In this document: positions 2,213 to 37,597 of the stretch, one piece after another | How positions within the stretch are numbered: the first letter of the stretch is position 1 | Layout: the number at the start of each line of letters is the position of its first letter | Program-made: the position numbers and the translations under genes | Notes under the pieces: model-generated | Databases searched by the model: none | What the model was told of the DNA's origin: nothing | Seen by the model: the letters and a program-made list of their open reading frames with translations, nothing else | Origin: a virus | IMG/VR virus record: IMGVR_UViG_3300032285_003485 | Coordinates: 1 to 37,902 of that record | Length of the DNA: 37,902 nucleotides | Direction: 5' to 3' (one strand)

Positions 2213-2240
2213 ATATGTTAATTTAATTATTGGAGTCTTG

Positions 2241-3098
2241 ATGGCAAAACTTAAAGTTGCAGAATTGTTTTATAGTATTCAAGGTGAAGGCCGTTATATG
2301 GGCGTACCTAGTGTGTTTCTTCGCACATTCGGTTGTAACTTTACCTGCAGTGGTTTTGGTATGCCTAAAGGGGAGTTTAGTCATGAAGTTGATTATATCG
2401 CGGCTGACGTACATAAGTTTCTTACCTATAAAGATTTACCTCTTGTTAGTACAGGGTGCGATTCTTACGCTAGCTGGGATCCTCGTTTTAAGCATCTCAG
2501 CCCTGTACTTGATACTGATAACATTGCCGATTCAATTATGGATATACTTCCGTACAAGAAATGGGAAGACGAACATCTTGTAATTACAGGCGGCGAACCA
2601 TTGCTTGGATGGCAAAGATCGTATCCAGATCTTCTAAACAATGAGAAGATGAAATCTTTAAAAGAGATTACGTTTGAAACAAATGGTACTCAAACATTGT
2701 CATCCGAATTTAGACAGTATCTTCTTAATTGGTCTCTTGGTCGTAAAGACAGAGGATATAATGCACTAACATTTTCTGTTAGTCCAAAATTAAGTGTCAG
2801 TGGAGAAAAATGGGAAGAAGCAATCTGTCCAGATATTGTTGCATCATATCAAGACGTTGGATATACTTATCTTAAATTTGTAGTTGCAACTGAAGAAGAT
2901 GCAGAAGAAGCAATGACTGCTATTGATCTATATAAATCTGCAGGATTTAAAGGTCCTGTTTATTTGATGCCAGTAGGTGGTGTCGAAAGTGTTTATGCTA
3001 TGAACAATCGAAAGGTTGCAGAAATGGCAATGAAGAACGGTCTTCGATATAGCGATCGTTTACAAGTGCCCTTATTTAAAAACGAATGGGGAACATAA
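2241..3098 (+). CDS. queE: 7-carboxy-7-deazaguanine synthase QueE (variant cysteine spacing)
   Basis: Radical SAM enzyme converting 6-carboxy-tetrahydropterin to 7-carboxy-7-deazaguanine (CDG) in the preQ0 pathway. Seen: N-terminal LFYSIQGEGRYMGVPSVFLR typical of QueE, GC32NFTC36, and the radical-SAM VITGGEPLL glycine motif. The usual CX3CX2C is altered: after C36 comes SGF rather than XXC, and the next candidate ligand is C73 in TGCDSY after a 36-residue insertion (CX3CX36C). Start chosen at ATG 2241 with GGAG five bases upstream; a TTG one codon earlier is less likely. 285 aa, longer than most QueE (about 210-225), because of this insertion and one further on. First gene of the deazaguanine cassette. 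Confidence 0.88.
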   Translation: MAKLKVAELFYSIQGEGRYMGVPSVFLRTFGCNFTCSGFGMPKGEFSHEVDYIAADVHKFLTYKDLPLVSTGCDSYASWDPRFKHLSPVLDTDNIADSIMDILPYKKWEDEHLVITGGEPLLGWQRSYPDLLNNEKMKSLKEITFETNGTQTLSSEFRQYLLNWSLGRKDRGYNALTFSVSPKLSVSGEKWEEAICPDIVASYQDVGYTYLKFVVATEEDAEEAMTAIDLYKSAGFKGPVYLMPVGGVESVYAMNNRKVAEMAMKNGLRYSDRLQVPLFKNEWGT

Positions 3099-3161: not shown

Positions 3162-3851
3162 ATGTCATATAACAAGACAAAATGCGACCCAGAGTTGGGT
3201 CAAAAAGTTCATCAGCATCTAGTTGCAATGGGAGTCGAAACACCTACTCGATTAGATCCTAATACCCGATTAGATCTTGATCGCAAAACAAAGATTGAAG
3301 TAATTGAGTCTCACTTTTCGGAAATTATGCGAGTGTTGGGCCTTGATTTAGAAGATGATAGTTTAATTGAAACACCAAAGCGTGTTGCTAAGATGTATGT
3401 TAACGAAATCTTTTGGGGTTTGGATTATGACGCATTTCCAAAATGTACTACAGTTAACAATAAGATGAAATACAACGAAATGGTTGTTGAACGCAATGTT
3501 AATGTACAAAGTAATTGCGAACATCATTTTGTAGTCATTGATGGATTGGCAACAGTTGCGTATGTTCCAAAGGATAAAGTTCTTGGACTAAGTAAAATTA
3601 ATCGTATTGTAGAATACTTCAGTAAGCGTCCTCAGATTCAAGAACGTCTAACAGAACAAATTTATTATGCGTTGCAGTTTATTTTGGAAACAGATAATGT
3701 TGCAGTTATGATTGATGCTCAGCATTATTGTGTTAAGAGCCGAGGCGTAGAAGATACAGGCAGTTCTACCGTTACAAGTAAGCTAGGTGGAGGATTTAAA
3801 ACAGATCCCTCTCTTAGAAATGAATTCTTAAGCATCGCACGATCAAAATGA
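3162..3851 (+). CDS. folE: GTP cyclohydrolase I FolE
   Basis: Converts GTP to 7,8-dihydroneopterin triphosphate, the first step shared by folate and 7-deazaguanine synthesis. Zinc and catalytic residues are visible: C119 and H121/H122 in NCEHHF, H188 and C190 in QHYCVKSRG, and the family motif RLTEQI near residue 162. 229 aa, normal length, with a 40-residue N-terminal extension. A strong Shine-Dalgarno AAGGAAGG precedes the ATG. Coupled to the following exonuclease by ATGA. Between queE and dpdA its likely role is preQ0 supply for DNA modification rather than folate. Confidence 0.95.
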
Positions 3852-4358: not shown

Positions 4359-5726
4359 ATGAATATTTACAACAGGAGAATTGCTTTTTGTATTAGCGAT
4401 CAGCATTTAATTCCATATGGTGGTATCGGACAATTTGCAAAATCTTTTGTAGAGACTTGTTCTGTTATTGGAATAAAAATTGATATTATATTGGATAAAC
4501 CTGCATCCAATAAAGACTTTAGTGCATACCTTCAATCTAAAGGGGCTAATATTGTTGTACCTAAAGAGCCACTTAGTTATAGTAAGCATGCTAAAACTTT
4601 TATGTTTGAGGATTCTTATAACTTTGAAAAGATGATTAATTTTAGAGAATGCTTTATGTCTGCTCTAAATGATAATCTATATGATGTAGTTATTTGTAAC
4701 ACCGTAGAATCATTTCCTGCAATCTATTCATTGTCTATTCAAGATTCAGTACAAATTGTATACTATACTCATCATGAGAATCTTGTCTTTATGGATGAAA
4801 ATAATCAGAAAAGTAAATTCTCAAATTCATTCAATGAATTTTTTATTAAATTGATGGATGTAAAAGGCATTTATATTGGTACACAAACACGTAGAAATGT
4901 TGCTGAGATTAAATTATCTGGTAAAGATGCATACTATACGCCAATACAAATGACAGAAAAAGATTTGCTTTCTCCTCATACAAAGCCAAGAGAAGGTGTA
5001 CTATGGATTGGTCGTTGGGAACCAAGAAAGAACCCTGAAGAATTTGTTCGCATGATTGCAGAAACAAAATTGCCTGCAAAAATTATTACAAATGATACTG
5101 GTGCGAAAAAATTTGAAGCAGCATTAAAAGAAATTAATGCAAAATTTGAAATTCGTTCAGAAATCTATGGTCAAGAAAAAGTTGATTTTATAACATCTGC
5201 CCGGGTTGCATATAACCCTGCAATACGAGAAAGCTTTGGTTTAGCATTTTATGAATGTATTGGGCATATGCCAACGGTTGCACTTAAAGGAATGTCTTGG
5301 TTAGAAAACTTTAATGGTACGGATTTCTTTAGTGTAGATAAAAAAGATGTAAGTAGCACTATATTAAAATTATATGAACAATACAAAAGTCCATTTGATT
5401 GGTACAATACTGGCGCATTGGAGCGAGTTGTAAATATGGATTTAAGTGGTATTGCAGAATGGTTTAATTTATTTGATTTGTTCAAACCAACACAATCCAA
5501 TTCTAGTAAAGCAAAAATTAATGAATATGAAACGACGCAGTATAAAAAATACATAAACGATCTAAATAGGAAAGATTTATCTATTGATGATATCCGTTCT
5601 GTATTGACAAACAAGCACAAATATAATATAATTTACACAGACAATCACACCTATCTATCAAAAGATAAAAATTTTGTTCCTGATGAACAAAATTCCTCAA
5701 GCACTTTAGAAAGTTTATTCGAATGA
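4359..5726 (+). CDS. GT-B glycosyltransferase (GT4-like), candidate DNA-base glycosyltransferase
   Basis: 455 aa protein with the two-domain GT-B layout. The N-terminal domain starts RIAFCISDQHLIPYGGIGQF. The C-terminal domain starts near residue 207 with VLWIGRWEPRKNPEEF and carries the EX7E motif ESFGLAFYE (E291, E299) typical of GT4-type retaining enzymes. A Lys/Asn/Ser-rich tail of about 80 residues follows. It lies between folE/exonuclease and dpdA and overlaps dpdA by ATGA. In T4 the DNA alpha-glucosyltransferase gene agt occupies the same gp55-gp47 interval, so DNA-base glycosylation is my preferred inference. A role in surface glycans cannot be excluded. Donor and acceptor are unknown. 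Confidence 0.75.
   Translation: MNIYNRRIAFCISDQHLIPYGGIGQFAKSFVETCSVIGIKIDIILDKPASNKDFSAYLQSKGANIVVPKEPLSYSKHAKTFMFEDSYNFEKMINFRECFMSALNDNLYDVVICNTVESFPAIYSLSIQDSVQIVYYTHHENLVFMDENNQKSKFSNSFNEFFIKLMDVKGIYIGTQTRRNVAEIKLSGKDAYYTPIQMTEKDLLSPHTKPREGVLWIGRWEPRKNPEEFVRMIAETKLPAKIITNDTGAKKFEAALKEINAKFEIRSEIYGQEKVDFITSARVAYNPAIRESFGLAFYECIGHMPTVALKGMSWLENFNGTDFFSVDKKDVSSTILKLYEQYKSPFDWYNTGALERVVNMDLSGIAEWFNLFDLFKPTQSNSSKAKINEYETTQYKKYINDLNRKDLSIDDIRSVLTNKHKYNIIYTDNHTYLSKDKNFVPDEQNSSSTLESLFE
5604..5632 (+). promoter_or_regulatory. Sigma70 promoter ahead of dpdA
   Basis: TTGACA 5604-5609 and TATAAT 5627-5632 with a 17 nt spacer, inside the 3' end of the upstream glycosyltransferase. Predicted start near 5639 gives an 84 nt leader to dpdA. 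Both hexamers are perfect but they lie in coding AT-rich sequence, so chance is possible. Confidence 0.55.
5670..5694 (+). repeat. Perfect 10-bp inverted repeat in the dpdA leader
   Basis: AATTTTGTTC (5670-5679) and GAACAAAATT (5685-5694) are exact complements around the loop CTGAT. No T-run follows, so it is not a classical terminator. It lies between the 5604 promoter and dpdA and could affect dpdA translation or mRNA stability. Confidence 0.5.
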
Positions 5727-7009
5727 GCAGACAAATGGAATATGTAATTTCTGGACCGGCGTACTTGCGTCTTGGTGCAGAACAATGTAATGATCCTGAA
5801 GTATTACAGATGATTAATGACCTTATTGGTAAGACTGTTCATAATATGAATAATCATCAGTTCTCATTATTGTACAATGGGTTTACTGAAAAACAATTTG
5901 GTAAACGTCTACAAAAATTTAGACCGGCAATTAAAAATATCCATGCTGATTCTGGTGGTCTGCAGATTATTACTCGAGGTATTCAGAATTCCCCTGAGGT
6001 CCGTAATGGGGTTTATGAGAATCAAGCATCGCATGCTGATATTGGAATGTCCTTTGATGAAATTCCGGTAATTATTACTAATGCAAGTGGTAAATCTGCA
6101 AAGCTTGATACTAAAGGTAGATATTTTGATCGAGATAACTTTGCAAGTTATGCAAAGCAAACAGGACAAAATATTAAAGCACAGATTGAAAAATTTATTG
6201 AAATGAAAAGTGATTGCCGACCCTTCGCAATCATTCAAGGTGCTTGTCACGAAACTTATGCAGAGTGGGCAAATATTTTGCTTGAAGAAATTACCGCACC
6301 ATATCATGATCGTATTGGTGGCGTATCAATGGCATCTGCTGCATTAGGTACTGGTCAACTTGAAGATGTTAAACGAGCATTTTATGTTAAGGTAATGCCT
6401 TTTAAGAAACCATTTCATCTGCACATTCTAGGAGTTGGTGCTCTGCGTCGAATGCTTCCTTATATGGTGTTTAGTCAGACTGGAATGTATGAGAACATTG
6501 AAATCTCTTATGATTCTACAACACATTCTATGTCATTGGATAATGGATTGTTTTATTTCTCATATAGTAAGAAAACACGACATGGGTATGGCGGGTCATC
6601 TGTAAAAATGGGTAGAGAATATTCAAATATCTATAGAACAGTTGTAGATGAAATCAATAGTGTTTGTGGTACAGAATATACCCCAGAAGAATATCATAAA
6701 TTGATGAATATTGCAGTAGGCAAATATCTTGAGAATGGTGGCAAATTCATTGACATTATGAAAGCACGTCTATGTTTTATATTGACAAATGTTCATAATT
6801 TTACATTGGATGTCACAACTTTGTTAGAATCTAAAGATGAATTACTTAAATTCTGCAGAGATAAAGGTTGCGAAAATGAATATGCAACATTGTTTGAAGT
6901 TAAAGATATTGGCGACTTTTCTCATTGGGAAAAGCACGTTGGTAAATATATGGAATCAGAATCTGTGGGCCATCAGCCTAGGATGTCTTTAGAAGATTTA
7001 TTTGCATAA
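5723..7009 (+). CDS. dpdA: DpdA-like DNA/tRNA guanine transglycosylase
   Basis: 428 aa TGT-superfamily base-exchange enzyme. Landmarks match TGT: HADSGGLQ with D76 (TGT has DSGGFQ), MSFDEIP, AIIQGACHETYAEW (TGT FGIVQGG), GGVSMAS near 199-205, HILGVGALRRM near 234-243, and SYDSTTH with D264 where TGT has its nucleophilic aspartate. The CXCXXC...H zinc site of bacterial tRNA TGT is not evident in the C-terminus. Phage DpdA proteins insert 7-deazaguanines into DNA, and this copy sits among FolE, QueE and QueD genes, which argues for DNA as target. The product base is unknown: no QueC is seen in the window. Confidence 0.82.
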   Translation: MSRQMEYVISGPAYLRLGAEQCNDPEVLQMINDLIGKTVHNMNNHQFSLLYNGFTEKQFGKRLQKFRPAIKNIHADSGGLQIITRGIQNSPEVRNGVYENQASHADIGMSFDEIPVIITNASGKSAKLDTKGRYFDRDNFASYAKQTGQNIKAQIEKFIEMKSDCRPFAIIQGACHETYAEWANILLEEITAPYHDRIGGVSMASAALGTGQLEDVKRAFYVKVMPFKKPFHLHILGVGALRRMLPYMVFSQTGMYENIEISYDSTTHSMSLDNGLFYFSYSKKTRHGYGGSSVKMGREYSNIYRTVVDEINSVCGTEYTPEEYHKLMNIAVGKYLENGGKFIDIMKARLCFILTNVHNFTLDVTTLLESKDELLKFCRDKGCENEYATLFEVKDIGDFSHWEKHVGKYMESESVGHQPRMSLEDLFA

Positions 7010-7019
7010 GGATTATATT

Positions 7020-7445
7020 ATGTCTATAATTAAAAAGAGTAGTTTTATTTGGGTTACCTTTCAAAAAGAAGGTATTCATCGTTACCCTGCAGCGGCAACT
7101 GACGTTAAGTTAGCTACACGCAGATTTGGTATACCTGAAGAACATTGGCTGGATGTTAGTTTTCTTGCAGATCCGCATCGGCACATTTTCCACTTTCGTG
7201 TCGAGATGGAAGTATTTCATGATAACAGAGACGTAGAATTTATCCAAGCAAAAAGAATAATGGAGCGTTGGTATAATGATGGTACGTTGCAACTAGATTA
7301 TAAATCATGTGAAATGATGGCAAATGATCTATATGATAAATTGATCGCAAAATGGCCAGGCAGGGGTTATGTAGTTGAAGTATCCGAAGATGGTGAAAAC
7401 GGATGCAGAATTCATTTTGAACATATTAAAGATATAGATGTCTAA
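7020..7445 (+). CDS. Divergent QueD/PTPS-like T-fold protein
   Basis: 141 aa from ATG 7020, with AAGGA seven bases upstream; an earlier in-frame TTG at 7002 is unlikely. The order of motifs follows the 6-pyruvoyl/6-carboxy-tetrahydropterin synthase fold: H20 in GIHRYPAA (like AAHRL), H53 and H55 in PHRHIFHFRVEME (like HGHNYXVEV), DVEF near 71-74 (like the DF of QueD), SCEMMANDLYDKL at 96-108 (like PTAENLA), and VEVSEDGENG with E123 where QueD has its terminal glutamate. The catalytic cysteine and the DHXXLN motif are not evident, so it may be a second QueD with altered activity or a structural partner. It overlaps the next gene by 8 nt. Confidence 0.55.
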   Translation: MSIIKKSSFIWVTFQKEGIHRYPAAATDVKLATRRFGIPEEHWLDVSFLADPHRHIFHFRVEMEVFHDNRDVEFIQAKRIMERWYNDGTLQLDYKSCEMMANDLYDKLIAKWPGRGYVVEVSEDGENGCRIHFEHIKDIDV

Positions 7446-8511
7446 AATTTTTATTGTAGATTTAGAATCGGTAGATACGCGATACACAGGACAATGGAAA
7501 CGATATGTACCCAAATTACTTAAAAAGGAAGGTCATGACATCGAAGTTATATGTGGGCCTGCTGATATTCCTAGTGCCACTACTCCTGGCGCCTTTCTTA
7601 ATTTTGGTGGCACTAATATCTATAAGTCTGCACAAGTTGAGCAAATGGGCCGTTTATTTGTCAGTGGATCCGTTAATGCTAATGATCATTTTTTATTTAC
7701 TGACGCTTGGCATCCTGGCATTATTAACTTAAAATATATGAGTGAATTGTTGCAGATCCCTGTAACGATTCACGCACTATGGCATGCCGGCAGTTATGAC
7801 CCTCAAGATTTTTTAGGTCGCCTTATCGGAGATGCTCAGTGGGTTAGACACGCCGAGCAAAGTTTCTTTCATGCTATTGACCATAACTATTTTGCTACAA
7901 ATTTTCATATTGATTTGTTTGCTGATACATTTAGCGAAACAGTAGATGATGAGTGGAAATTAACTATGATTGAGCAAGGTAAGATTGTTCGTTCAGGTTG
8001 GCCAATGGAATATATGGTTGATACATTAGATAATTATAATACTACAAAACAAGATATTATTTTATTCCCGCATCGTATTGCTCCTGAGAAACAAGTTGAA
8101 ATTTTTAGAGATCTTGCAAAGCAATTGCCTCAATATGAATTTATTGTTTGTCAAGATAAACAATTGACTAAACATGAATATCATGAGTTATTGGGTAGAG
8201 CTAAAATTGTGTTCAGTGCTAACTTGCAGGAAACACTAGGCATTAGTTGCTACGAAGGCGCATTAGTTGATGCTATTCCTATGGTGCCAGATCGTTTGTC
8301 TTATAGTGAAATGTATAATGATATATTCAAATATCCAAGTGAGTGGACAGAATCATTTGAAGCATACGAATTACATCGACAAGATTTATGCTACAAAATT
8401 ATTCAATACATGAATAATCACGATCAATATAAGTATCAAGTTCGTAAACAAGCATCAGACTTAACGGAAAAATTCTTTTCTGCTAATGTATTGACATCAA
8501 TGTTTAAGTAA
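7438..8511 (+). CDS. Second GT-B glycosyltransferase in the deazaguanine cassette
   Basis: 357 aa. The C-terminal half has the GT4 pattern: ILFPHRIAPEKQVEIF near residue 207, a YEFIVCQ strand, and the EX7E motif ETLGISCYE (E265, E273) followed by GALVDAIPMVPDRLSYSEMY. The N-terminal half has several His/Trp clusters (TIHALWHAGSYD). It is clearly different from the glycosyltransferase at 4359, so it is not a recent duplication. It lies between a QueD-like protein and QueD in the gp55-gp47 interval. It may act on modified DNA bases; acceptor and donor are not determinable. Confidence 0.7.
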   Translation: MSKIFIVDLESVDTRYTGQWKRYVPKLLKKEGHDIEVICGPADIPSATTPGAFLNFGGTNIYKSAQVEQMGRLFVSGSVNANDHFLFTDAWHPGIINLKYMSELLQIPVTIHALWHAGSYDPQDFLGRLIGDAQWVRHAEQSFFHAIDHNYFATNFHIDLFADTFSETVDDEWKLTMIEQGKIVRSGWPMEYMVDTLDNYNTTKQDIILFPHRIAPEKQVEIFRDLAKQLPQYEFIVCQDKQLTKHEYHELLGRAKIVFSANLQETLGISCYEGALVDAIPMVPDRLSYSEMYNDIFKYPSEWTESFEAYELHRQDLCYKIIQYMNNHDQYKYQVRKQASDLTEKFFSANVLTSMFK

Positions 8512-8519
8512 TATATAAT
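8491..8519 (+). promoter_or_regulatory. Consensus sigma70 promoter for queD
   Basis: TTGACA 8491-8496, 17 nt spacer, TATAAT 8514-8519: a perfect match. It overlaps the 3' end of the upstream gene. A start about seven bases downstream would fall near 8526, exactly at the first base of the structured leader. Confidence 0.85.
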
Positions 8520-8525
8520 ACATCA

Positions 8526-8587
8526 CATAGCGGTCTACCGGCATCGTCCCGCTTTATAAATTCCGCCGCCTATGATTAACATAGGAG
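8526..8587 (+). promoter_or_regulatory. Candidate preQ1-I-type riboswitch controlling queD translation
   Basis: P1: AGCGG 8529-8533 with CCGCT 8549-8553. The loop begins TC right after P1 and ends with C8548 just before the 3' strand, as in preQ1-I, where that cytosine reads the ligand. An A/T tail TTATAAATTCC (8554-8564) follows. P2 pseudoknot: CGGC 8539-8542 with GCCG 8565-8568. The output hairpin CCTATG 8569-8574 / CATAGG 8580-8585 buries the Shine-Dalgarno AGGAG (8583-8587). The competing pairing CATAGCGG 8526-8533 with CCG-C-CTATG 8566-8574 would break P1 and free the site. This fits a translational OFF switch. The loop is longer than usual (15 nt). Confidence 0.65.
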
Positions 8588-8594
8588 AATAAAC

Positions 8595-9068
8595 ATGGCA
8601 AAATACATTTCAACAAAAACTTATAATCAGATCGGTCCCGTAGCATATAGACAATGGCGGGCAGATAGTCATTGCAATCTAATTCATGGATATGCACTTT
8701 CATTCCATTTAGAATTTGAATGTGATACATTAGATGCTCGCAATTGGTGCATGGACTTCGGTGGATTAAAACCTCTTAAAGGTCTACTTGAGGATTGGTT
8801 TGACCACACATTATTAGTTGCTCAAGATGATCCAATGCGAGAGCATCTATTACATCTAGGCACATTAAAATTAGCAAAGATTACAGAAGTTGAAAAGACT
8901 GGATGTGAGGGTATTGCTGATTTTCTTTATGAATATATTAACACAATTTTCTTGCCCAACTATGGAGAAAAAGATCGTGTTTGGTGTTGCAAAGTACAAG
9001 TACGAGAAACAGATGCTAACATGGCAATGCGTGTTGGACATAGAGAAGATAACGAATTTAAAGATTGA
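8595..9068 (+). CDS. queD: 6-carboxy-tetrahydropterin synthase QueD
   Basis: 157 aa T-fold enzyme converting dihydroneopterin triphosphate to 6-carboxy-tetrahydropterin, between FolE and QueE in the pathway. Seen: YRQWRADSHCNLIHGYALSF (residues 18-37, C27 and H31), DFGGLKPLK (54-62), FDHTLLV with D70/H71, CEGIADFLYEYI (104-115) and E138 in VRETDA. The canonical zinc pattern AAHRL...HGH is changed to AYRQW...HGY, as I recall from a QueD subfamily found in alphaproteobacteria and phages. The start has AGGAG seven bases upstream, inside the riboswitch-like hairpin. It ends three bases before gp47. Confidence 0.9.
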   Translation: MAKYISTKTYNQIGPVAYRQWRADSHCNLIHGYALSFHLEFECDTLDARNWCMDFGGLKPLKGLLEDWFDHTLLVAQDDPMREHLLHLGTLKLAKITEVEKTGCEGIADFLYEYINTIFLPNYGEKDRVWCCKVQVRETDANMAMRVGHREDNEFKD

Positions 9069-9070
9069 AT

Positions 9071-10126
9071 ATGAAGATTTGTTTGTTGGGAGATACACAC
9101 TTTGGAGTTAGAAATGACTCCAAAGCATTTCATGCGTATTATGAAAAATTCTATACCAATGTACTATTCCCATATCTAAAAGATAACAAGATTGATACTG
9201 TTATTCAATTGGGCGATCTATTTGATCGAAGGAAGTATATTAATTTTAATTCGCTTGCAGAGTCAAGACGTTATTTCTTTGATCCAATGGAAGCGAATGG
9301 AATTAAATTAATTACATTAGTTGGCAATCATGATATATTCTGGAAAGAAACTCTTAGTGTAAATTCTCCAGATTTATTGTTACGAGATTATGGTAACATT
9401 ACTATTTTCCAAGAGCCAGGCCAAATGCAATTTGATGGTGTTCAATTTGATATTATTCCTTGGATTTGTAAAGACAACGAAACACAGATTGCAGCATTCA
9501 TGGATGCAAGCACCTCTGATTATTGTATCGGACATTTTGAAATTTCCGGATTTCAAATGATGAAAGGTATTGATAACCATGAAGGATTTGATCGTAGTTA
9601 TTTTAAACAATATAAACACGTATTAAGTGGGCATTTTCATACTAAATCTAGTGAAGGAAATATCTCATATCTTGGCACTCCTTATGAATTAACATGGAAT
9701 GATGAAAGCGATCCAAAAGGATTCTTCATCTTTGATACTGAAGATCATTCTTTAGAGTTTATACAAAATCCATATACTATTTTTACAAAGTATTATTATA
9801 ACGACGAAACAATGGATCCTGATGGTATTGATACTGCATCTTTTGAATCTCAACATATAAAAATTGTTGTCGTTAAGAAAAGAGACTTCCATAAGTTTGA
9901 TAAATTTATAGAACGTATCTACAGACGAGACCCTCTTGAAGTTAAGATTATTGAAGACTTTTCTGAGTTTGAATCTGAGGCATTAGATGATGCTATTGAT
10001 TTAGAAGATACTATGACATTGCTTACAGGGTATGTTGATAGTATTGAAACAGACGCAGACAAAGAACGATTGAAGACACTGCTTAAGACATTATATGTCG
10101 AAGCACAACACTACGACGAAGCATGA
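9071..10126 (+). CDS. 47: Recombination nuclease subunit gp47 (Mre11/SbcD-like)
   Basis: Metallophosphoesterase subunit of the T4 gp46/47 complex, which resects DNA ends and degrades host DNA. Phosphoesterase motifs in order: D8-H10 in LGDTHFG, D49 in QLGDLFDRR, N86-H87-D88 in VGNHD, CIGHFE, and SGHFHTKSSEG near 190. 351 aa against about 339 in T4. ATG 9071 is used; a TTG two codons upstream is in frame but weaker. Coupled to gp46 by ATGA. Confidence 0.95.
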   Translation: MKICLLGDTHFGVRNDSKAFHAYYEKFYTNVLFPYLKDNKIDTVIQLGDLFDRRKYINFNSLAESRRYFFDPMEANGIKLITLVGNHDIFWKETLSVNSPDLLLRDYGNITIFQEPGQMQFDGVQFDIIPWICKDNETQIAAFMDASTSDYCIGHFEISGFQMMKGIDNHEGFDRSYFKQYKHVLSGHFHTKSSEGNISYLGTPYELTWNDESDPKGFFIFDTEDHSLEFIQNPYTIFTKYYYNDETMDPDGIDTASFESQHIKIVVVKKRDFHKFDKFIERIYRRDPLEVKIIEDFSEFESEALDDAIDLEDTMTLLTGYVDSIETDADKERLKTLLKTLYVEAQHYDEA

Positions 10127-11841
10127 GTATAAGATTTACAAAAATACGATGGAAAAATTTCTTATCAACCGGCGGACAATTTACAGAAATAAATTTTGAA
10201 GCATCTCCTTCTACTTTAATTGTTGGTGAGAATGGTGCTGGTAAAAGTACAATTCTTGATGCTATTTGTTTTGGTCTTTTTAATAAACCATTCCGCAGTA
10301 TTAATAAACCGCAATTAATGAATACTATCAACGGCAAGAATCTTGTTGTTGAGGTTGAATTTTCTATTGGCAAAAAGGATTACCGAATAGTTCGGGGCAT
10401 GAAACCGAATGTATTTGAAATCTATTGCGATGGTACGATTCTAAATCAGGATGCAGCATCAAGAGATTATCAGAAATACTTAGAAGAAAGTATTTTGAAA
10501 TTAAATTATAAATCTTTTACTCAGATTGTAATTTTAGGATCGGCATCATTTACGCCCTTTATGCAATTGTCTTTAGGGTATAGAAGAGAAATTATTGAGG
10601 ATATTCTTGATATCCAAATTTTCTCTGTTATGAATACTGTATTAAAGGATAAGATCAATTCTTTAAAAGATTCAATTAAAGATTTAGATGGCAAGATTGA
10701 AATAGGAAAGCACAAAGTAAAAGTCCAACAAGGATACATTCTTCAATTGGAAGAAGATAAAAAGAAACGTGAAAACGATGTCCAAACTAAAATTGACGAA
10801 TCTAATTTAGAAATTGCATCGTTATCTAAACAATTGGAAGAGCTACAAGATGTATATGCTGTTCATGAACTAAGTATTTCTGATTCCGACGAACAAACAA
10901 AAAAGAAAACAGAATTAAATACTCTGTATAAAAATCTTACTGATAGAATTAAAAAAGCTAAAAACGAAATTAATTTCTACGAAGAACATGATAATTGCCC
11001 AACCTGTAATCAAAATATTTCTGATGATTTAAAGACGCAAACTGTCGAGAAGCATACTCATAAGATTGAGGAAGTTACATCTGCATTAGATCAGATCAAT
11101 GCAAAAATTACAGAAGTAGAAACTCGTCTTACTAAAATTGAAGATATTAAAAAGGCAATGTCTGAGGTTCAAGTATCAATTTTAAGAGTAAACAATTCAA
11201 TGATTGCTTCTCAGAATTATATTAAAAAGTTGATGGCGGACTTGGAACAAAAGGATGATACTTTAACATCATTAACTAATGAAAAGTTAAATCTAAAGTC
11301 AATGGCTAAGGATATTGTTGATTTAGTTTCTGATAGGTCAAAAATTAATGAGGATAAATTTTATCATGAAGCAGCGGGGTCTTTATTAAAAGACACCGGC
11401 ATTAAAACTAAGATCATTCGACAATATCTTCCAGTAATAAATAAGTTGGTAAATAAGTACTTGACGGCAATGGATTTCTTTGTCCACTTTGAACTAGATG
11501 AATCGTTTAATGAAACAATTAAATCTAGACATAGAGATGAATTTAGTTATGCATCTTTTAGTGAAGGTGAAAAGCAAAGAATTGATTTGGCGTTATTATT
11601 TACATGGCGAACAATTGCAAAGATGAAGAATAGCGCAAGTACTAATCTATTACTATTAGATGAAGTATTTGATTCCTCATTAGATGCAAATGGCACAGAT
11701 TATGTTATGAATTTGTTGAATACCATAAGTGATGATACAAATGTGTTTGTAATATCGCACAAAGGCGATCAATTAATTGATAAATTTAAATCAGTAATTA
11801 AATTTCAAAAGTATCAAAATTTTAGTAGAATAGTAGTATGA
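10123..11841 (+). CDS. 46: Recombination nuclease subunit gp46 (Rad50/SbcC-like)
   Basis: SMC-like ATPase partner of gp47, 572 aa (T4 about 560). Walker A GENGAGKST at 35-43, coiled-coil arms on both sides of the zinc hook CPTC (C292, C295), ABC signature FSEGEKQRIDLALL from residue 479, Walker B LLLLDEVFD shortly after, and a C-terminal VFVISHKGDQL switch region. All motifs needed for function are intact. Overlaps the deformylase gene by ATGA. Confidence 0.96.
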   Translation: MSIRFTKIRWKNFLSTGGQFTEINFEASPSTLIVGENGAGKSTILDAICFGLFNKPFRSINKPQLMNTINGKNLVVEVEFSIGKKDYRIVRGMKPNVFEIYCDGTILNQDAASRDYQKYLEESILKLNYKSFTQIVILGSASFTPFMQLSLGYRREIIEDILDIQIFSVMNTVLKDKINSLKDSIKDLDGKIEIGKHKVKVQQGYILQLEEDKKKRENDVQTKIDESNLEIASLSKQLEELQDVYAVHELSISDSDEQTKKKTELNTLYKNLTDRIKKAKNEINFYEEHDNCPTCNQNISDDLKTQTVEKHTHKIEEVTSALDQINAKITEVETRLTKIEDIKKAMSEVQVSILRVNNSMIASQNYIKKLMADLEQKDDTLTSLTNEKLNLKSMAKDIVDLVSDRSKINEDKFYHEAAGSLLKDTGIKTKIIRQYLPVINKLVNKYLTAMDFFVHFELDESFNETIKSRHRDEFSYASFSEGEKQRIDLALLFTWRTIAKMKNSASTNLLLLDEVFDSSLDANGTDYVMNLLNTISDDTNVFVISHKGDQLIDKFKSVIKFQKYQNFSRIVV

Positions 11842-12854: not shown

Positions 12855-15023
12855 ATGTCACTAGCAAACTCAAAATCTATTCTTGCAAAGCTGCTTGCAC
12901 AAGAAAACATCTCTGTGCAACATAAGAAAACTTCTACCGCATACTTTGATCCTAAGAACCGAATTCTTGTTCTTCCTATTTGGAAAGAAATGAGCGGTGA
13001 TCTATATGACCTTCTTGTTGGACATGAAGTAGGGCATGCGTGGGAAACTCCTCCCGATGGTTGGCACGACGCGGTGCGTGGCCATACTCCAGGATTCAAA
13101 TCTTATCTTAACGTAATCGAAGATGCCCGCATCGAGAAATGTATTAAAGTTCGATACCCTGGTTTACGTTCATCTTTTTATAAAGCATATAAAGATTTAG
13201 TTGAAAAAGATTTCTTCGGTATCAACGATATTGATGTAAATACTCTGCCATTCATTGATCGTATCAATCTGCATTTTAAGGTAGGTCCTTTTATGGCTGT
13301 ACCTTTTTCAGATGAGGAACAGGTTTACATCAAACGAATTGACTCTCTAAAATCTTGGGACGAGGTTCTAACTATTGCAAAAGAATTGTATAACAATCAA
13401 AAGGCAATTAATGAGGATGAGGTAAAATTAGAACAACGTAAAAAACTTAGAATCAACGGCGACATCGAAGATCTCGATGGAGAATTCTCCGATGACTTTG
13501 ATATTGAATTTGATTCTGATTCTGATGATTTTGGCGATGATGACCAAGACGGCGAAGACGGTGAGACAGGCGAATCTCGAGCAAAAAATAAAAATGCCGG
13601 TAAGAACGATCCAAGTTCTATTACAGATCAAGAATTTCGCAGTCGTGAAGCAGATTTGTTATCGAATGATGTTCGCCCATATAAGTATTTCAATTTACCA
13701 AATGTAAAAATTGAGGATGTAATTATTCCTCACGATTACCTATATAAGAATACTAATTGGGAATCGCTCGATAATAATGACCGGCACAAAGATGCAAATA
13801 CTCTCCTTGCAAACTACAAACAAACTAATGGCAAGTTTATTCAATATCTTGTTAAAGAGTTTGAACTAAAACGAAACGCAGCTCAATTTGCTCGAGCAAA
13901 AGTTTCTAAAACTGGAGAATTAAATCTAGATAAAATTTTTAGTTACAAATATAATGAAGATCTTTTTAAACGTGTTACTAAAATTCCAGGTGGTAAGAAT
14001 CATGGAATGATAATGTTTATAGATTGGTCAGGTTCAATGACCGACAATATTACTCAAACAATTGAACAGACGCTAGTGCTTGCAGATTTTTGCAAAAAAG
14101 TAAATATTCCTTTCCGAGTATTTTCTTTTACAGATTCATCAGGCGGAGTCGTTGAATCATTTATTAAGAATAAGTATGGTCTTCCTGGATATCTTGCAGG
14201 TAAACATCATGCAACTTTTTCAAAGAATCCATTAGATTTGGTAATAAATGGTTACGCTTATAAAAGTTTTGAATTGTTATCCAATAGTATGACAACTGCT
14301 CAATATAATTTTGCGCAGAAAAAATTATTACAATTTGGTGCAATTTATACTAATTCTCGGTATATGAGATATGCTGATATCCCTGCTGGATGGGAGCTAA
14401 ATTCGACTCCTTTAAATGAAGCGGTTATATTTGCAAATCATTTTATACCCGTGTTTAAAGAAATGTATAAATTGGATATTGTTAATACTATTTTCCTTAC
14501 AGACGGAGAAGGTAATTATTTGAATCAAATAGTTACTCCTGAAGGTACACAAAGAGATGCAAATTCATATTATGGATTAGGTTATCGAGTATCTGCAAAT
14601 ACTGTAGTAACTGATCCAAAAACAAAAATATCGGGATATGCCGCACCGGGTCAACCTGTTACCGCAGCTCTTCTAGATTTGCTCAAAAAACGTACAGACA
14701 CAAATCTTGTAGGATATTATATTATGAGCAGATCTTCAAGAGGAGTTGTCCAAAGAATTTTGGATACAAGTGGGCTGCAAAATAAAGAAGATTCTACAAA
14801 TATTATTGGCAAAATTCGAAAAGACAAATTTTATTCTTTATCAACATATGCATATGATAAGTATTTTTTGGTTGTTTCGGATGATCTAGTTATTGAAGAT
14901 GGAGAAATGGTAGTAACCAGCGATACATCGAAAAAAGATCTTATGAAAGCTTTTATTAAGAATCGTAAATCTAAATTGATGAATCGGATACTTTTGAACA
15001 AATTTATTGAAGAAATCGCTTGA
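12855..15023 (+). CDS. cobT: CobT-like protein with HEXXH site and VWA domain
   Basis: 722 aa. The N-terminus carries a zinc-peptidase-like HEXXH: H57, E58, H61 in VGHEVGHAWE, with a possible third ligand in VIEDARIEK. A strongly acidic stretch (about residues 200-235, mostly D/E/S/G) follows. The C-terminal half is a von Willebrand A domain with the MIDAS motif DWSGSM (D390, S392, S394). Phage versions are called CobT by similarity to the cobaltochelatase subunit; with the AAA+ protein that follows it more generally forms a MoxR/VWA-type remodelling pair. There is no sign of other cobalamin genes. It has its own consensus promoter. Confidence 0.85.
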   Translation: MSLANSKSILAKLLAQENISVQHKKTSTAYFDPKNRILVLPIWKEMSGDLYDLLVGHEVGHAWETPPDGWHDAVRGHTPGFKSYLNVIEDARIEKCIKVRYPGLRSSFYKAYKDLVEKDFFGINDIDVNTLPFIDRINLHFKVGPFMAVPFSDEEQVYIKRIDSLKSWDEVLTIAKELYNNQKAINEDEVKLEQRKKLRINGDIEDLDGEFSDDFDIEFDSDSDDFGDDDQDGEDGETGESRAKNKNAGKNDPSSITDQEFRSREADLLSNDVRPYKYFNLPNVKIEDVIIPHDYLYKNTNWESLDNNDRHKDANTLLANYKQTNGKFIQYLVKEFELKRNAAQFARAKVSKTGELNLDKIFSYKYNEDLFKRVTKIPGGKNHGMIMFIDWSGSMTDNITQTIEQTLVLADFCKKVNIPFRVFSFTDSSGGVVESFIKNKYGLPGYLAGKHHATFSKNPLDLVINGYAYKSFELLSNSMTTAQYNFAQKKLLQFGAIYTNSRYMRYADIPAGWELNSTPLNEAVIFANHFIPVFKEMYKLDIVNTIFLTDGEGNYLNQIVTPEGTQRDANSYYGLGYRVSANTVVTDPKTKISGYAAPGQPVTAALLDLLKKRTDTNLVGYYIMSRSSRGVVQRILDTSGLQNKEDSTNIIGKIRKDKFYSLSTYAYDKYFLVVSDDLVIEDGEMVVTSDTSKKDLMKAFIKNRKSKLMNRILLNKFIEEIA

Positions 15024-15048
15024 CACGATCTTCAAAAGATGTTATAAT
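15020..15048 (+). promoter_or_regulatory. Consensus sigma70 promoter for the CobS-like gene
   Basis: TTGACA 15020-15025, 17 nt spacer, TATAAT 15043-15048; perfect hexamers. It begins on the stop codon of the preceding gene. Leader about 28 nt with AGGA before ATG 15083. Confidence 0.88.
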
Positions 15049-15082
15049 TATTTTGTGAAATCCCCATCCCTAGGACTATATT

Positions 15083-16279
15083 ATGAAAACCGATATTGAT
15101 AAAAAACAACTTATTACAGATCTAGTAACTAATTTTGGTAAGACGGCATCGCGAAAAGCTGTCATTGCTTATCTTGAACAAAAAGGAATTAAAACTCCTT
15201 TTTGGTTGATTAATGGTGCTAAATACCGAGCAAGTCGCGGTGTATTAAATCTAGATGTATCAGATAACGATATCCCTAAAACTACTACAAATACGAATAT
15301 TATGAAAGAAGAAATGCCCGCATTGCAGGCACAAGTTGTGCCCCTTCGACAAAAGCGTTTGGTTACAGAAGTGGAAAATCTAGTACCCATTAAAGATGAC
15401 AATTATGTTCCTTTTGGATTTTTCCGAGATCTAGAATCCATCCTTAAATCTAAGGTGTTTTATCCTGTTTTCATTACTGGTCTAACTGGTAATGGTAAAA
15501 CAACTATGGTTGAACAAGTTTGTTCTAAACTAAAACGAGAGTGTGTCCGGGTTAATGTTTCTATTGAAACAGATGAGGATGATCTTGTTGGTGGATCTAC
15601 ATTGATTGACGGTAACGTAACTTTCCGTGAAGGTCCAGTTATTCTCGCAATGCGACGTGGAGCAGTTTTGCTAATTGACGAAATTGATCGTGGTAGTAAT
15701 AAACTAATGTGTATTCAAGGTATTCTTGAAGGCAAACCATATTTCAATAAAAAGAATGGCGACGTAATTTATCCCGCACCTGGTTTTACAGTTGTTGCTA
15801 CAGCAAATACTAAAGGTCAAGGCTCTGATAGCGGCAAGTATATTGCAGCACAAATTCTTGATGAGGCATTCCTTGAGCGTTTCCCTATTACTGTTGAACA
15901 AGAATATCCTAATGCTAAAATCGAGCATAAGATTATTATCAACAACATGAAAGAGTTGGGATGCGAAGATGCAGAATTTGCAGACAAGTTGGTTACTTGG
16001 GCTGAAGTTATTCGTAAGACATATCTTGAAGATGCGATTGATGAACTGATTTCTACCCGACGTCTTGTTCATATTGTAAAAGCATTCTCAATGTTTAAAG
16101 ATCGTCAAAAGGCAATTGAGCTTTGTATTAATCGCTTTGATGGAGACACGAAGAATTCTTTTATGGATCTCTATAAGAAAATGGAAGCTCCTAAGGAAGA
16201 AGAAAAAGTATACGATCAAAAAATTGATACTCCAACTAGTTCGGCTCCAACCCCTCCCGATGATGAAATTCCATTCTAA
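15083..16279 (+). CDS. cobS: CobS-like AAA+ ATPase
   Basis: 398 aa MoxR/CobS-type ATPase. Walker A GLTGNGKT (133-140), Walker B VLLIDEIDRG (195-204), a TANTKGQG sensor region near 250 and an LDEAFLERF arginine-finger region. The N-terminal 110 residues look like a separate small helical domain and linker. Expected to form a ring that works with the VWA protein encoded upstream. The substrate is unknown; in cyanophages cobS is widespread and usually discussed as cobalamin-related. Followed by a clear terminator. Confidence 0.9.
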   Translation: MKTDIDKKQLITDLVTNFGKTASRKAVIAYLEQKGIKTPFWLINGAKYRASRGVLNLDVSDNDIPKTTTNTNIMKEEMPALQAQVVPLRQKRLVTEVENLVPIKDDNYVPFGFFRDLESILKSKVFYPVFITGLTGNGKTTMVEQVCSKLKRECVRVNVSIETDEDDLVGGSTLIDGNVTFREGPVILAMRRGAVLLIDEIDRGSNKLMCIQGILEGKPYFNKKNGDVIYPAPGFTVVATANTKGQGSDSGKYIAAQILDEAFLERFPITVEQEYPNAKIEHKIIINNMKELGCEDAEFADKLVTWAEVIRKTYLEDAIDELISTRRLVHIVKAFSMFKDRQKAIELCINRFDGDTKNSFMDLYKKMEAPKEEEKVYDQKIDTPTSSAPTPPDDEIPF

Positions 16280-16375: not shown

Positions 16376-17386
16376 ATGAAAAAAGCATTGATTACAGGAA
16401 TCACAGGACAAGATGGTTCCTATCTAGCAGAACTTCTATTGGAAAAAGGATACGAAGTTCATGGTATTATTAGACGTAGTTCTTCGATTAATACTTCTAG
16501 AATTGACCATATATTCAATCATCCAAATTTAGAATTACATTATGGAGATGTAACTGATTCATTGTCATTAATGAATGTTCTAAAAAAACATTCTCCAGAT
16601 GAAATCTATAATTTAGCTGCCCAAAGTCATGTTAAAGTTTCTTTTGAAACTCCTGAATACACAGGTATGGTTGATGCAATGGGCACGTTAAAAATATTGG
16701 AATCTGTAAGATTGCTTAATCTAGATAAAAAGACAAAAATTTATCAAGCATCTACTTCTGAACTATTTGGATTGGTTCAAGAAATCCCACAAAAAGAAAC
16801 AACCCCGTTCTATCCTAGGTCCCCATACGGCGTTGCAAAAATGTATGCTTATTGGATTGTAAAAAATTACAGAGAGTCGTATAATATGTTTGCTTGCTCG
16901 GGCATACTATTTAATCACGAATCTCCTCGCCGAGGACATAATTTTGTAACTAAGAAAATTGTAAATGCTTTAAAGGCAATTAGTGAAGGTAAACAAGAGT
17001 GTTTGTATCTTGGCAATCTAAATGCTATGCGAGATTGGGGACATGCTAAAGATTATGTCAACGCAATGTGGATGATGTTGCAACAGGATACACCGGAAGA
17101 TTATGTTATTGCAACTGGAGAACAATTCTCAGTAAGAGAATTTGTTGAACATTGTGCCCCATATTTTGGTTTAAAAATTCGTTGGGAAGGTGACGGAGTT
17201 AATGAAGTTGGCATTAATAAAGTATCTAAAAAAGTAATAATCCGAGTAGATAAAAAATATTTCCGACCAGCAGAAGTTGAAACATTATTAGGTGATGCAT
17301 CGAAGGCAAGAATACAATTAGGATGGAAACCTACGCAATCATTTGATGATTTGGTTGAAGATATGTGTATGAATTTTGATGAATAA
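16376..17386 (+). CDS. gmd: GDP-mannose 4,6-dehydratase
   Basis: Makes GDP-4-keto-6-deoxy-D-mannose, precursor of GDP-fucose, rhamnose, perosamine and colitose. 336 aa SDR enzyme: NADP-binding TGITGQDG (7-14) followed by the [14 protein letters not shown] block diagnostic of Gmd, T127/E129 in ASTSELFG, and Y151-K155 in [12 protein letters not shown]. First gene of the late glycan cluster. No separate GDP-fucose synthase is clearly recognisable, although the reductase at 24090 could serve. Confidence 0.95.
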
Positions 17387-17395
17387 GAAAGTTAT

Positions 17396-18265
17396 ATGAA
17401 TAAAAAATTAAGTATAGGGTTTACTGATACCCATCCGCATCTAGCAACATTCTTTATGGACTTATTGTCTACACGGTATGATGTAGAAATTAACAATGAT
17501 AATCCTGATTTTTTGTTATTTGGTGATAGAAATTTTGGTGAGAATAATTTAAAATATTCTAAAGATGTTGTTAAGATTTTCTATACAGGAGAAAATCAAA
17601 GACCAGAAGATTATGATTGTAACTATGCAATAAGTTTTGATCATAACTTTGAACCTTGGCATTATAGATTGCCTTTATATGTTGTCTATATGTGGGCATT
17701 AGAACATATACACAAAACAAAGTATGATTTTAATTATATCTTTAATCCCGAAATTAAAGAGAAAACCGACTTCTGTTCTTTTGTTGTAAGTAATCCCAAT
17801 TGCCAAGAACGTAACAATTTCTTTAAAATGTTACACAAAGAAAAGCACGTTGATAGTGCAGGCAAACTATACAAAAATATAGATGTCAATTTGGAAGGCG
17901 AAGCTGCTAAAATTGAATTTTTATCTACACGAAAATTTAATATTTGTTTTGAACCATATTCTCATCCTGGATATGTTACCGAAAAAATACTACACGCATT
18001 CTATGCAGGAACAATTCCAATATACTGGGGAAGTGAAACAATCAGTTCAGATTTTAATCCAAACGCATTTATTGATGTAAATGATTTTGGTAGTTATGAA
18101 GAAGCAATTAAATTTATTATGTACTTGGATAGTCACGATGAGTTGTACAATATAATGCTTAATGCGCCAAAATTTAAAAACGGAATTCCTCCGTCATACA
18201 TCATGCTTGATAATTTCTTAAATTGGTTTGATGCGGTAGTTTATAATAAAATTTTACAACGATGA
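17396..18265 (+). CDS. GT10-family fucosyltransferase-like protein
   Basis: 289 aa. The signature block at about residues 180-212 (FEPYSHPGYVTEKIL, then FYAGTIPIYWGS) matches the alpha-1,3/4-fucosyltransferase family GT10, which uses GDP-fucose. Its place directly after gmd supports a fucose or related GDP-6-deoxyhexose donor. An FNPNAFIDVNDF segment follows as in GT10. Coupled to the next gene by ATGA. Confidence 0.85.
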   Translation: MNKKLSIGFTDTHPHLATFFMDLLSTRYDVEINNDNPDFLLFGDRNFGENNLKYSKDVVKIFYTGENQRPEDYDCNYAISFDHNFEPWHYRLPLYVVYMWALEHIHKTKYDFNYIFNPEIKEKTDFCSFVVSNPNCQERNNFFKMLHKEKHVDSAGKLYKNIDVNLEGEAAKIEFLSTRKFNICFEPYSHPGYVTEKILHAFYAGTIPIYWGSETISSDFNPNAFIDVNDFGSYEEAIKFIMYLDSHDELYNIMLNAPKFKNGIPPSYIMLDNFLNWFDAVVYNKILQR

Positions 18266-18975
18266 ATATACAGACATTTATTTTCAATTGGCGCGGACAA
18301 TATGAAAAGACAAAAGAAAAGCAAAAGCAACTGAGTGCCATTGGGGTCGTGCCTGTCGTTATTAATAGTGACGACAATCACCGTGAGGACGATCCTAATT
18401 GGCACAATATTGGCGAGGAAAGTTATTTCACTGCACAGTTCTTAAAAGCATTGGAATTATTTACTGGCGATGCAATGTTTCACATACAAGCGGATGCATC
18501 ATATAGTAATTGGGCAGAAATTTATCAAGGAGCAAGAGATTGCTTTGATACTTACAATTGGGGAATTTATGCACCAAATGTGGATTATACATTTTATAAT
18601 TCTGCAAGAACTGATCTTACAAGTTTTGATTTAGATGAACCTAATTTAAAAATGGTTGCAAATACAGATTGTACTTGTTGGTTTATTCATAAAGATATTC
18701 TTGAAGATGCAAAAAATAGAAATATAAATTTTGCGCCATATAAAATGGGTTGGAGTTTTGATATAATTTTTACCGCAATTAGTTATATTAATAAACGACC
18801 AGTCATTCGAGATTATTCATTTACTATTGACCATCCGCAAGGAACCAATTATAATAAAGATCAGGCCGAGATTGAGATGGTTCAACTATATCAATCACTT
18901 ACACCCGATGTACAAGAAGCATTTAGATATATTAAAGGCGATAAAGAAAAATTAGCGCAATACTATGCAAATTGA
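18262..18975 (+). CDS. Putative GT-A-like glycosyltransferase
   Basis: 237 aa. The first strand IQTFIFNWRGQYEKT, a VVPVVINSDDN strand and then a DAMFHIQADASYSNW segment (where GT-A enzymes have DXD) suggest a nucleotide-sugar transferase. WFIHKDIL and MGWSFDIIF resemble acceptor-side motifs of GT2-like proteins. The DXD is atypical (DAS), so family placement is uncertain. It overlaps its neighbours on both sides within the glycan operon. Confidence 0.6.
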   Translation: MNIQTFIFNWRGQYEKTKEKQKQLSAIGVVPVVINSDDNHREDDPNWHNIGEESYFTAQFLKALELFTGDAMFHIQADASYSNWAEIYQGARDCFDTYNWGIYAPNVDYTFYNSARTDLTSFDLDEPNLKMVANTDCTCWFIHKDILEDAKNRNINFAPYKMGWSFDIIFTAISYINKRPVIRDYSFTIDHPQGTNYNKDQAEIEMVQLYQSLTPDVQEAFRYIKGDKEKLAQYYAN

Positions 18976-19867: not shown

Positions 19868-19870
19868 ATT

Positions 19871-37522: not shown

Positions 37523-37597
37523 TGCGGGTTGGCGCAGTAGTAGCGCGCTGGACTCATAATCCAGAGGTCGGTGGTGCGAATCCATCACCCGCATCCA
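37523..37597 (+). tRNA. tRNA with CAT anticodon (Met or Ile2), atypical elbow
   Basis: A full cloverleaf folds: acceptor TGCGGGT/ACCCGCA, D stem GCGC/GCGC, anticodon stem CTGGA/TCCAG with loop CTCATAA (anticodon CAT 37555-37557), T stem GGTGG/CCATC, and encoded CCA 37595-37597. It is not an initiator: the first pair is T1-A72 and the anticodon stem lacks GGG/CCC. Oddities: D loop AGTAGTA lacks a GG pair, T loop TGCGAAT has G at position 55, and the discriminator base is T. Whether it is Met or lysidine-type Ile2 cannot be decided. Confidence 0.88.

Follow-up and report, generated by a model that had tools for sequence, protein, structure and literature searches.

A conserved pseudoknot leader ahead of phage queD genes and its candidate role as a translational switch

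The virus record IMGVR_UViG_3300032285_003485 of IMG/VR, analysed here over its full 37,902 bases and referred to as the window, carries a queD gene of the 7-deazaguanine pathway behind a short leader that looks like a regulatory RNA. An original prediction, made from these letters alone, read this leader as a preQ1-I riboswitch that shuts queD down when the deazaguanine is plentiful. The locus thereby raises the question of whether the leader is a conserved RNA at all, whether it belongs to preQ1-I, and in which direction it would act on queD. Judged by its relatives, the leader is a real and widely conserved RNA rather than a chance fold, and we propose, at a probability of roughly 0.6, that it would act as a phage-specific cis-acting translational ON switch ahead of queD.

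A conserved pseudoknot in queD leaders

Comparison of related leaders shows a compact H-type pseudoknot as the predicted common fold: a 5-bp helix P1 and a helix P2 of 4–6 bp, extended by C-G and R-Y (purine-pyrimidine) pairs, are joined by loops L1 to L3, with a C beside P1 and L3 lying along P1. In the window the element spans 8529–8587, has a core of about 47 nucleotides (nt), and scores 54 bits with a covariance model built from 66 element sequences (alignment A1); the promoter, P1, C8548, the hairpin over the Shine-Dalgarno (SD) sequence and the queD start all lie where the original prediction had placed them (Table 1). Relatives were gathered from IMG/VR with the window QueD as query (best 80 of 485 relatives kept), in a second QueD-chosen sample with the QueD of locus L379 as query (best 80 of 599 loci), and with three core DNA patterns blind to queD, each of which gave at least 120 stretches. 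A strict scan of all collected loci and the window yielded at least 420 matches in 419 sources, which is not a census; counted on the element and the next 60 nt, 325 of the matches are distinct. Some contigs occur more than once, the matches with 300 nt available downstream giving 335 different 300-nt stretches there, and related sequences are non-independent data points. The patterns demanded P1 pairing and the letters GG, CT, CCC, A-N-A-N-A and YTCYGC, so the conservation of these is built in, and the parse additionally demanded UC in L2; P2, the L2 purine, the downstream helix P3 and the promoters were left free.

Although free to vary, P2 pairs at 3.92 of 5 positions, compared with 2.55 ± 0.10 when its 3′ strands are shuffled (131 distinct combinations). 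P1 and P2 together have 89.2% paired cells in A1 against 67.9 in shuffles, and their covariation score of 0.522 (0.166 shuffled) is reached by 0 of 500 shuffles, in a test of five measures of which two did not rise above the shuffles. P2 alone is 78.4% paired, and each of its five pairs has two-sided changes. As P1 was partly imposed by the patterns, we tested it again on leaders selected through QueD alone; the new test and its shuffles both relied on the L2/L3 anchors and took the best of the possible P1 5′ strands. In it, 75 distinct full leaders form 4.88 of 5 pairs, against 4.02 ± 0.06 in shuffles, with five pairs in 67, four in 7 and one misparse (GATTC/CGCTT, 3 pairs) kept in the counts. 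Seven Watson-Crick types of P1 occur (AGCGG/CCGCT, ACCGG/CCGGT, AGAGG/CCTCT, AGTGG/CCACT, TGCGG/CCGCA, AGTAG/CTACT and AGACG/CGTCT), and the compensatory changes that were to be sought in related queD leaders are thus present, with P1 and the pseudoknot kept through them.

A further pair links the third base of L2 to the eleventh of L3; among 321 unique elements it is A-U 276 times, G-C 44 times and A-C once (49, 16 and 1 of the 66 in A1). This R-Y pair and the neighbouring C-G would extend P2 toward the pocket; the C and G are imposed by the parse and patterns, while the L2 purine was free apart from the exclusion of U. In 220 cores, positions 4 and 6 of L3 vary together with the third pair of P1, at a normalised mutual information of 0.86 and 0.75, as expected if L3 sits in the P1 groove, although lineage may inflate these values; by reading, the remaining P1 types obey the same L3 rule. 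The window alone permits two registers of P2, CGGC/GCCG and GGC 8540–8542 with GCC 8568–8570. Relatives favour the latter, since sliding the 3′ strand by 1–3 nt lowers pairing from 4.05 to 1.7–2.3 of 5 over 419 parsed elements; the pseudoknot of the original prediction is thus supported, but probably in a register other than its CGGC/GCCG.

The element is closely tied to queD. Among the matches listed, 408 of 420 full-length ones are followed by a same-strand queD no more than 700 nt away, and the 12 exceptions comprise 5 at a contig or locus end, 4 with an inserted open reading frame (ORF), and loci L137, L143 and L295. The inserted ORFs, of 196–293 residues and with no queD within 700 nt of the element, follow the elements that start at 4830 in L176, 4363 in L185, 2353 in L238 and 9370 in L276, in the orientation of the element, and we read them as homing-endonuclease-like. 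L295 has two elements on the minus strand, at 9174–9220 and 11405–11451, the latter preceding a 672-residue ORF that is not queD. A pattern for a short form of the element, with a P1 of 3–4 bp and an L3 of 10 nt (lengths by reading), matched 105 stretches, with queD downstream in 104 and a contig end in the remaining one; the short-form sequence hardly varies, so it lends P1 no support. The QueD proteins behind the element have identities to the window QueD down to 31%.

Across 81 sources the covariance model gave 65 matches that score 41 bits or more; apart from these, no match exceeded 17.5 bits. In 33 hand-chosen element-bearing contigs of 119–383 kb there was one strong copy each, and one contig had an additional, incomplete match of 20.8 bits. 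Incomplete extra copies, which span model positions 1–26 at 17.5–20.8 bits, lie at G026:C1:1050-1077 and at 4309–4335 of L028 and L029, within about 650 nt of the full element. When leaders were chosen by QueD (161 from both samples and the window), 100 had the full element, 37 the short form and 24 no anchors; three of these 24 are cut by contig ends (L019, L495, L537) and two have the element further upstream (L068, L074), so that 19 of 161 show no element.

Named-phage records matching three QueD queries numbered 103, 123 and 104, and in 13 queD stretches fetched from named phages the covariance model R1 found no element (best 11.4 bits), with the limit that R1 scores the short form low and could let it escape. 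Leader DNA of three forms gave only partial matches to named phages, with E between 2 and 9 and no more than 49% of the query covered. Over 299 bacterial genomes of one phylum, R1 gave 5 matches, none above 22.4 bits. Three bacterial genome contigs matched one P1 pattern variant; by reading, what lies downstream of them is not queD and their L2 is unlike that of the element, and all three were regarded as chance, although one still scores 30.9 bits with R1. A literature search found no title or abstract opening reporting this element, which is weak evidence as subscription journals are mostly outside its coverage. A riboswitch would be expected to appear in this way, as a structured leader that is conserved and goes with a single pathway gene, and the relatives support this part of the original prediction, namely a riboswitch-like H-type pseudoknot with a translational platform, specific to phage 7-deazaguanine queD genes.

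Expression platform and promoters

Most leaders have a third helix, P3, that closes the SD sequence or the start codon. Its sequence differs by family, and families were defined by the sequence after P2: A carries the CCTATG hairpin, B has ...TCATC, and C is the remainder (161, 94 and 43 leaders in the accessibility analysis; 174, 95 and 52 for promoters and tail pairing, as family sizes differ slightly by analysis). P3 is CCTATG/CATAGG in A, GTCATC/GATGGC or GATGAC in B, and ACTCC/GGAGT in one group of C, while the short form has CCATTATT/AATAATGG, GCCATAT/ATATGGC or CCCATA/TATGGG. The helix is leader-specific, with mean energies of -7.64 kcal/mol in the full form (n=63) and -6.63 in the short form (n=23), against -6.47 ± 0.18 and -5.19 ± 0.29 with swapped partners. 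In 235 of 407 matches GCA stands as the second codon behind the assumed start of queD, perhaps because it pairs in P3; pairing of the conserved L3 Y with codon 2 was considered and is unsupported as a rule.

The arrangement of P2 and P3 bears directly on the direction of control. Predicted folds pair the 3′ strand of P2 with the SD or start region in 285 of 302 leaders; counting the first five tail bases whatever the length of P2, at least two pair with the start region in 158/165 leaders of A, 86/87 of B and 41/50 of C, against 0.50, 0.58 and 0.57 in downstream-shuffled controls, an excess that is modest in C. Accessibility was then computed for 298 unique leaders, 23 rows having been dropped (12 without queD, 10 without a recognisable SD and 1 without a start). 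With the P2 strands unavailable, the mean unpaired probability of the SD in family A rises from 0.29 to 0.59 (0.35 with a mock block of L3), going up by more than 0.2 in 107 of 161 leaders and down in none, and that of the AUG in family B rises from 0.04 to 0.56 (mock 0.04), going up in 72 of 94 and down in 1. By prediction, then, mutually exclusive structures control the start site, another property of riboswitches, most weakly so in family C. Since P2 and P3 share nucleotides, a stabilised P2 should open the queD start site; the OFF logic first proposed is probably reversed, and P2 formation should free translation. We suggest that without an effector P3 would win and queD would go untranslated, and that an effector stabilising the pseudoknot would withdraw the P2 3′ strand from P3, freeing the start site and turning queD on. 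The pairing by which P1 had been thought to be disrupted, CATAGCGG/CCG-C-CTATG, is not supported: at -9.9 kcal/mol, against -15.1 for P1 plus the hairpin, it is 5.2 less stable, and among 174 unique family A elements only 5 have its 5′ CAT ahead of P1.

Two kinds of promoter accompany the element. The perfect TTGACA-N17-TATAAT site of the window is confirmed and is the sole 12/12 promoter-like site in 7001–10000, where looser sites number 17 against 16.0 expected from shuffles; it overlaps the end of the ORF preceding queD, which ends at 8511. Upstream promoters of at least 10/12, 3–14 nt before P1 and so placed that RNA would begin at P1 or shortly ahead of it, are found in 46 of 321 unique elements compared with 3 of 321 base-shuffled upstream regions, and the idea that the window's promoter is unique is accordingly rejected. 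An internal promoter, with its -10 hexamer 4–30 nt after L3, scores 10 or more out of 13, with the 12 hexamer positions and the TG counted together, in 155 of 174 unique family A elements, mostly as TATAAT after TG in the P3 loop with the -35 in L3; compared with families B and C only, it is present in 0/95 and 6/52, respectively. The two promoters tend to exclude each other in family A, with both in 1 element, the upstream alone in 6, the internal alone in 154 and neither in 13 (Fisher p 5e-6; about three independent lineages, by reading).

Table 1 Features of the queD leader and of pathway genes in the window
Feature	Position	Strand	Basis and remarks
Sigma-70 promoter TTGACA-N17-TATAAT	8491–8519	+	12/12 matches (TTGACA 8491–8496, 17-nt spacer, TATAAT 8514–8519); predicted RNA start about 2–3 nt before P1
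P1 5′ strand AGCGG	8529–8533	+	P1 types in relatives
L1 start N-C-U	8534–8536	+	First base varies in relatives; C-U demanded by patterns
P2 5′ strand GGC	8540–8542	+	Register from relatives; followed by A8543, an A-C mismatch
L2 UCGUC	8544–8548	+	Pairs C8545-G8565 and G8546-C8564; C8548 adjoins P1
P1 3′ strand CCGCT	8549–8553	+	Pairs with AGCGG
L3 NNANANAYUCYGC, 13 nt	8554–8566	+	Predicted along P1, reaching the pocket; fixed letters demanded by patterns
P2 3′ strand CGCC	8567–8570	+	Last two bases are the first two of P3
P3 5′ strand (anti-Shine-Dalgarno) CCTATG	8569–8574	+	Folding and leader comparison
P3 3′ strand CATAGG	8580–8585	+	Overlaps Shine-Dalgarno AGGAG 8583–8587
queD, 6-carboxytetrahydropterin synthase-like, 157 residues	8595–9068	+	Pfam PF01242, E 3e-15, above cut-off
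QueE-like radical SAM protein, same pathway	2238–3098	+	TIGR03963, E 4e-15, under cut-off
FolE, GTP cyclohydrolase I, same pathway	3162–3851	+	Above cut-offs
TGT/DpdA-like protein	5723–7006		TIGR00430, E 6e-5, far under cut-off

Comparison with known leader RNAs

The preQ1-I riboswitch is Rfam family RF00522. No preQ1 family of Rfam 15 matched window positions 8300–8800 or 14 related loci at E<=10, and none matched at gathering score anywhere in the whole window; the permissive matches were to other families, at chance level and far under gathering scores. The queD leader does share much with preQ1-I: a small H-type pseudoknot whose P1 is short and has L3 lying beside it, control at the level of translation, a 7-deazaguanine pathway gene and, as far as patterns that demanded it can show, a C just ahead of the 3′ strand of P1. 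It differs in that the first base of L1, the conserved pocket U of preQ1-I and free in our patterns, is not conserved (U 182, A 126 and C 111 of 419); the paired part of L3 is preceded by C instead of A, the C being demanded by the patterns; L3 is longer, at 13 nt; P2 is broken by a U-C apposition whose letters are imposed by the patterns and parse; and the P2 3′ strand is the anti-start-site strand, so that the predicted outcome is ON. The C directly 5′ of the P1 3′ strand is present in 385 of 385 elements with a 5-nt L2, but it was demanded by patterns and parse, and the base before it is U in 270, A in 61 and C in 54, the resulting CC being neither of the UC nor of the AC type. Since the two agree neither in the U of L1 and the A of the pocket nor in L3 length and predicted logic, we do not file the element under preQ1-I, contrary to the original assignment, although it may work similarly.

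Phage leaders offer other parallels. The T4 gp32 mRNA has a pseudoknot operator, an H-type pseudoknot in the leader of a T4-type phage; that operator is bound by protein, whereas the queD leader has a conserved pocket-like core and a competing P3. The available portion of PMC3014915 mentions gp32 repression and describes the T4 genes e, soc, 49 and I-TevI, whose start sites are closed in long transcripts, and the gene e late promoters, which lie beside the start site and yield transcripts from which the 5′ portion of the structure is missing; according to the same portion, no T4 riboswitch has been functionally characterised. The queD leaders share with these T4 helices the closed start site and, in family A, a promoter that like that of gene e would yield open short transcripts. 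They differ from them as described there in having a pseudoknot that competes for the closing strand, and a promoter of the host sigma-70 type rather than the T4 late type. Among riboswitches of phages, the available part of PMC9004378 treats glutamine riboswitches, which belong to a known bacterial class, and a putative riboswitch at cyanophage psbA. Its glutamine riboswitches of marine phages come closest to the queD element in the literature searched. The phage-borne glutamine riboswitch of Melnitz (PMC9004378, same part) resembles the queD element in being carried by a phage; it belongs, however, to a bacterial class, and the queD element has no convincing match in the bacterial genomes scanned.

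Pathway genes, candidate effector and alternative explanations

The window contains T4-type genes, among its proteins being a sigma-factor-like protein (Pfam E 9e-5, just under cut-off), a clamp loader, and a phosphoesterase adjoining an SMC-like ATPase, presumably gp47 and gp46. The window QueD also matches TIGR03367 at E 1e-8, under that model's cut-off. We read the TGT-like protein as DpdA; relatives of it at 72–74% identity occur in only 2 of the 33 long contigs, and a search of these contigs for the TGT family found none. Elsewhere, 16376–21190 encodes nucleotide-sugar epimerase-like and aminotransferase-like proteins, perhaps a sugar-biosynthesis block; 12855–16276 encodes a pair of proteins matching PHROGs 459 (peptidase) and 249 (porphyrin biosynthesis, ATPase-like); and a tRNA gene lies at 37523–37594 (Rfam RF00005, 65.7 bits).

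The pathway genes suggest where a signal might arise. FolE is present in 31 and QueE in 30 of the 33 long contigs (two QueE matches being short and weak), while the QueC family matches 8 at E<=0.001 and 5 above cut-off, in contigs that may be incomplete; the phage-encoded pathway thus seems mostly to end at 7-carboxy-7-deazaguanine. Among the 13 named-phage stretches in which R1 found no element, 7 have an annotated QueC or ExsB (L442–L445, L666, L668, L670), ExsB being, we assume, QueC. Acidovorax phage ACP17, with queD, folE and queE and no annotated QueC in 12 kb, is yet without the element, so the link between QueC and the element is not strict. The QueC pattern fits a signal before preQ0 without identifying it. 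Because element-bearing phages are mostly without a clear QueC, our guess for the effector is a guanine-faced small molecule of the FolE-QueD-QueE steps, such as dihydroneopterin triphosphate, 6-carboxytetrahydropterin (CPH4) or 7-carboxy-7-deazaguanine (pathway names follow PMC6884629, as far as available).

The proposal of an ON switch must be made cautiously, as several observations weigh against it. The folding allowed nested pairs only, P1 being forced and a constraint standing in for P2, and the register of P2 is ambiguous in the window itself. In family A the accessibility of the AUG falls under the constraint from 0.58 to 0.42, while the mock raises it to 0.72, and it goes down by more than 0.2 in 69 of 161 leaders and up in 13; the SD of family B is unchanged (0.51; 32 up, 34 down). 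Gains are small in family C (n=43), both for the SD (0.34 to 0.45, mock 0.41) and for the AUG (0.41 to 0.65, mock 0.51), and in the window the SD gain is small (0.39 to 0.49) beside an AUG change from 0.37 to 0.89, values taken from L002 as a stand-in that is identical from P1 through the fourth codon. Two covariation measures lie near their shuffles: pairs changed on both sides number 7 against 6.7 (335 of 500 shuffles reach the value), and further pair types 23 against 21.3 (98 of 500). A transcript from the internal promoter of most family A members would lack the pseudoknot and the closing strand. Lastly, a pathway product would be expected to repress rather than activate, and the data would suit a metabolite and a protein effector alike.

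One may postulate instead that the leader has no function as RNA and is conserved as a promoter or as coding sequence. In family A, the promoter-like sequence lying across L3 and the loop of P3 would suit this idea, but the compensatory changes in P1, P2 and L2-L3 across the 66 aligned sequences, together with a score matched by no shuffle, already contradict it, and we regard it as extremely improbable. The same covariation is left unexplained if the leader serves to time expression, as the hairpin of T4 gene e does; P3 would then close read-through transcripts, the hairpin promoter would give open short ones and the pseudoknot would be secondary. Such a device has its precedent in T4 (PMC3014915, available portion) and would account for the frequent internal promoter of family A, which co-occurs with the upstream promoter once; as this promoter is absent from family B and rare in C, however, we find the explanation rather improbable.

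Other alternatives keep the pseudoknot and change what binds it or what binding does. A 7-deazaguanine OFF riboswitch, whose ligand would stabilise P1/P2 together with the adjacent hairpin and shut queD down, would follow the end-product repression that is the logic of preQ1 riboswitches in the available part of PMC11625349. The C beside P1 would agree with it, though demanded by the patterns, and so would the lower AUG accessibility of family A under the P2 constraint. The P2 3′ strand and P3 nevertheless share bases in nearly all predicted folds and so exclude each other, and the costly anti-P1 pairing is not conserved, which makes this reading quite unlikely. A phage or host protein might instead of a metabolite stabilise the pseudoknot, so that the leader would be a translational operator. 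T4 makes use of structured leaders to which gp32 and gp43 bind, and of the repressor RegA (PMC3014915, same portion), and each long contig has a single strong copy of the element; on the other hand, retention of the element beside such divergent QueD proteins makes QueD itself an unlikely binder, and the conserved unpaired core seems to resemble a ligand pocket. An operator of this kind appears unlikely to us.

We return to the phage-specific translational ON switch as the preferred reading. In its fullest version, which is tentative and to which we give somewhat less than even odds, the leaders would form a phage-only riboswitch class with a pseudoknot pocket of its own that senses a FolE-QueD-QueE intermediate and turns queD on, and the hairpin promoter of one lineage would provide both switch-controlled and switch-free mRNA. 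ON control would set the leader apart from the preQ1 riboswitches of types I–III reviewed in PMC11625349, at least as described in the available part of that text, from which the term "ON switch" is absent. If the fuller version is true, a phage-only aptamer at a DNA-modification gene would mean that viruses evolve metabolite sensors of their own, and the signal used by phages to time genome modification would be named.

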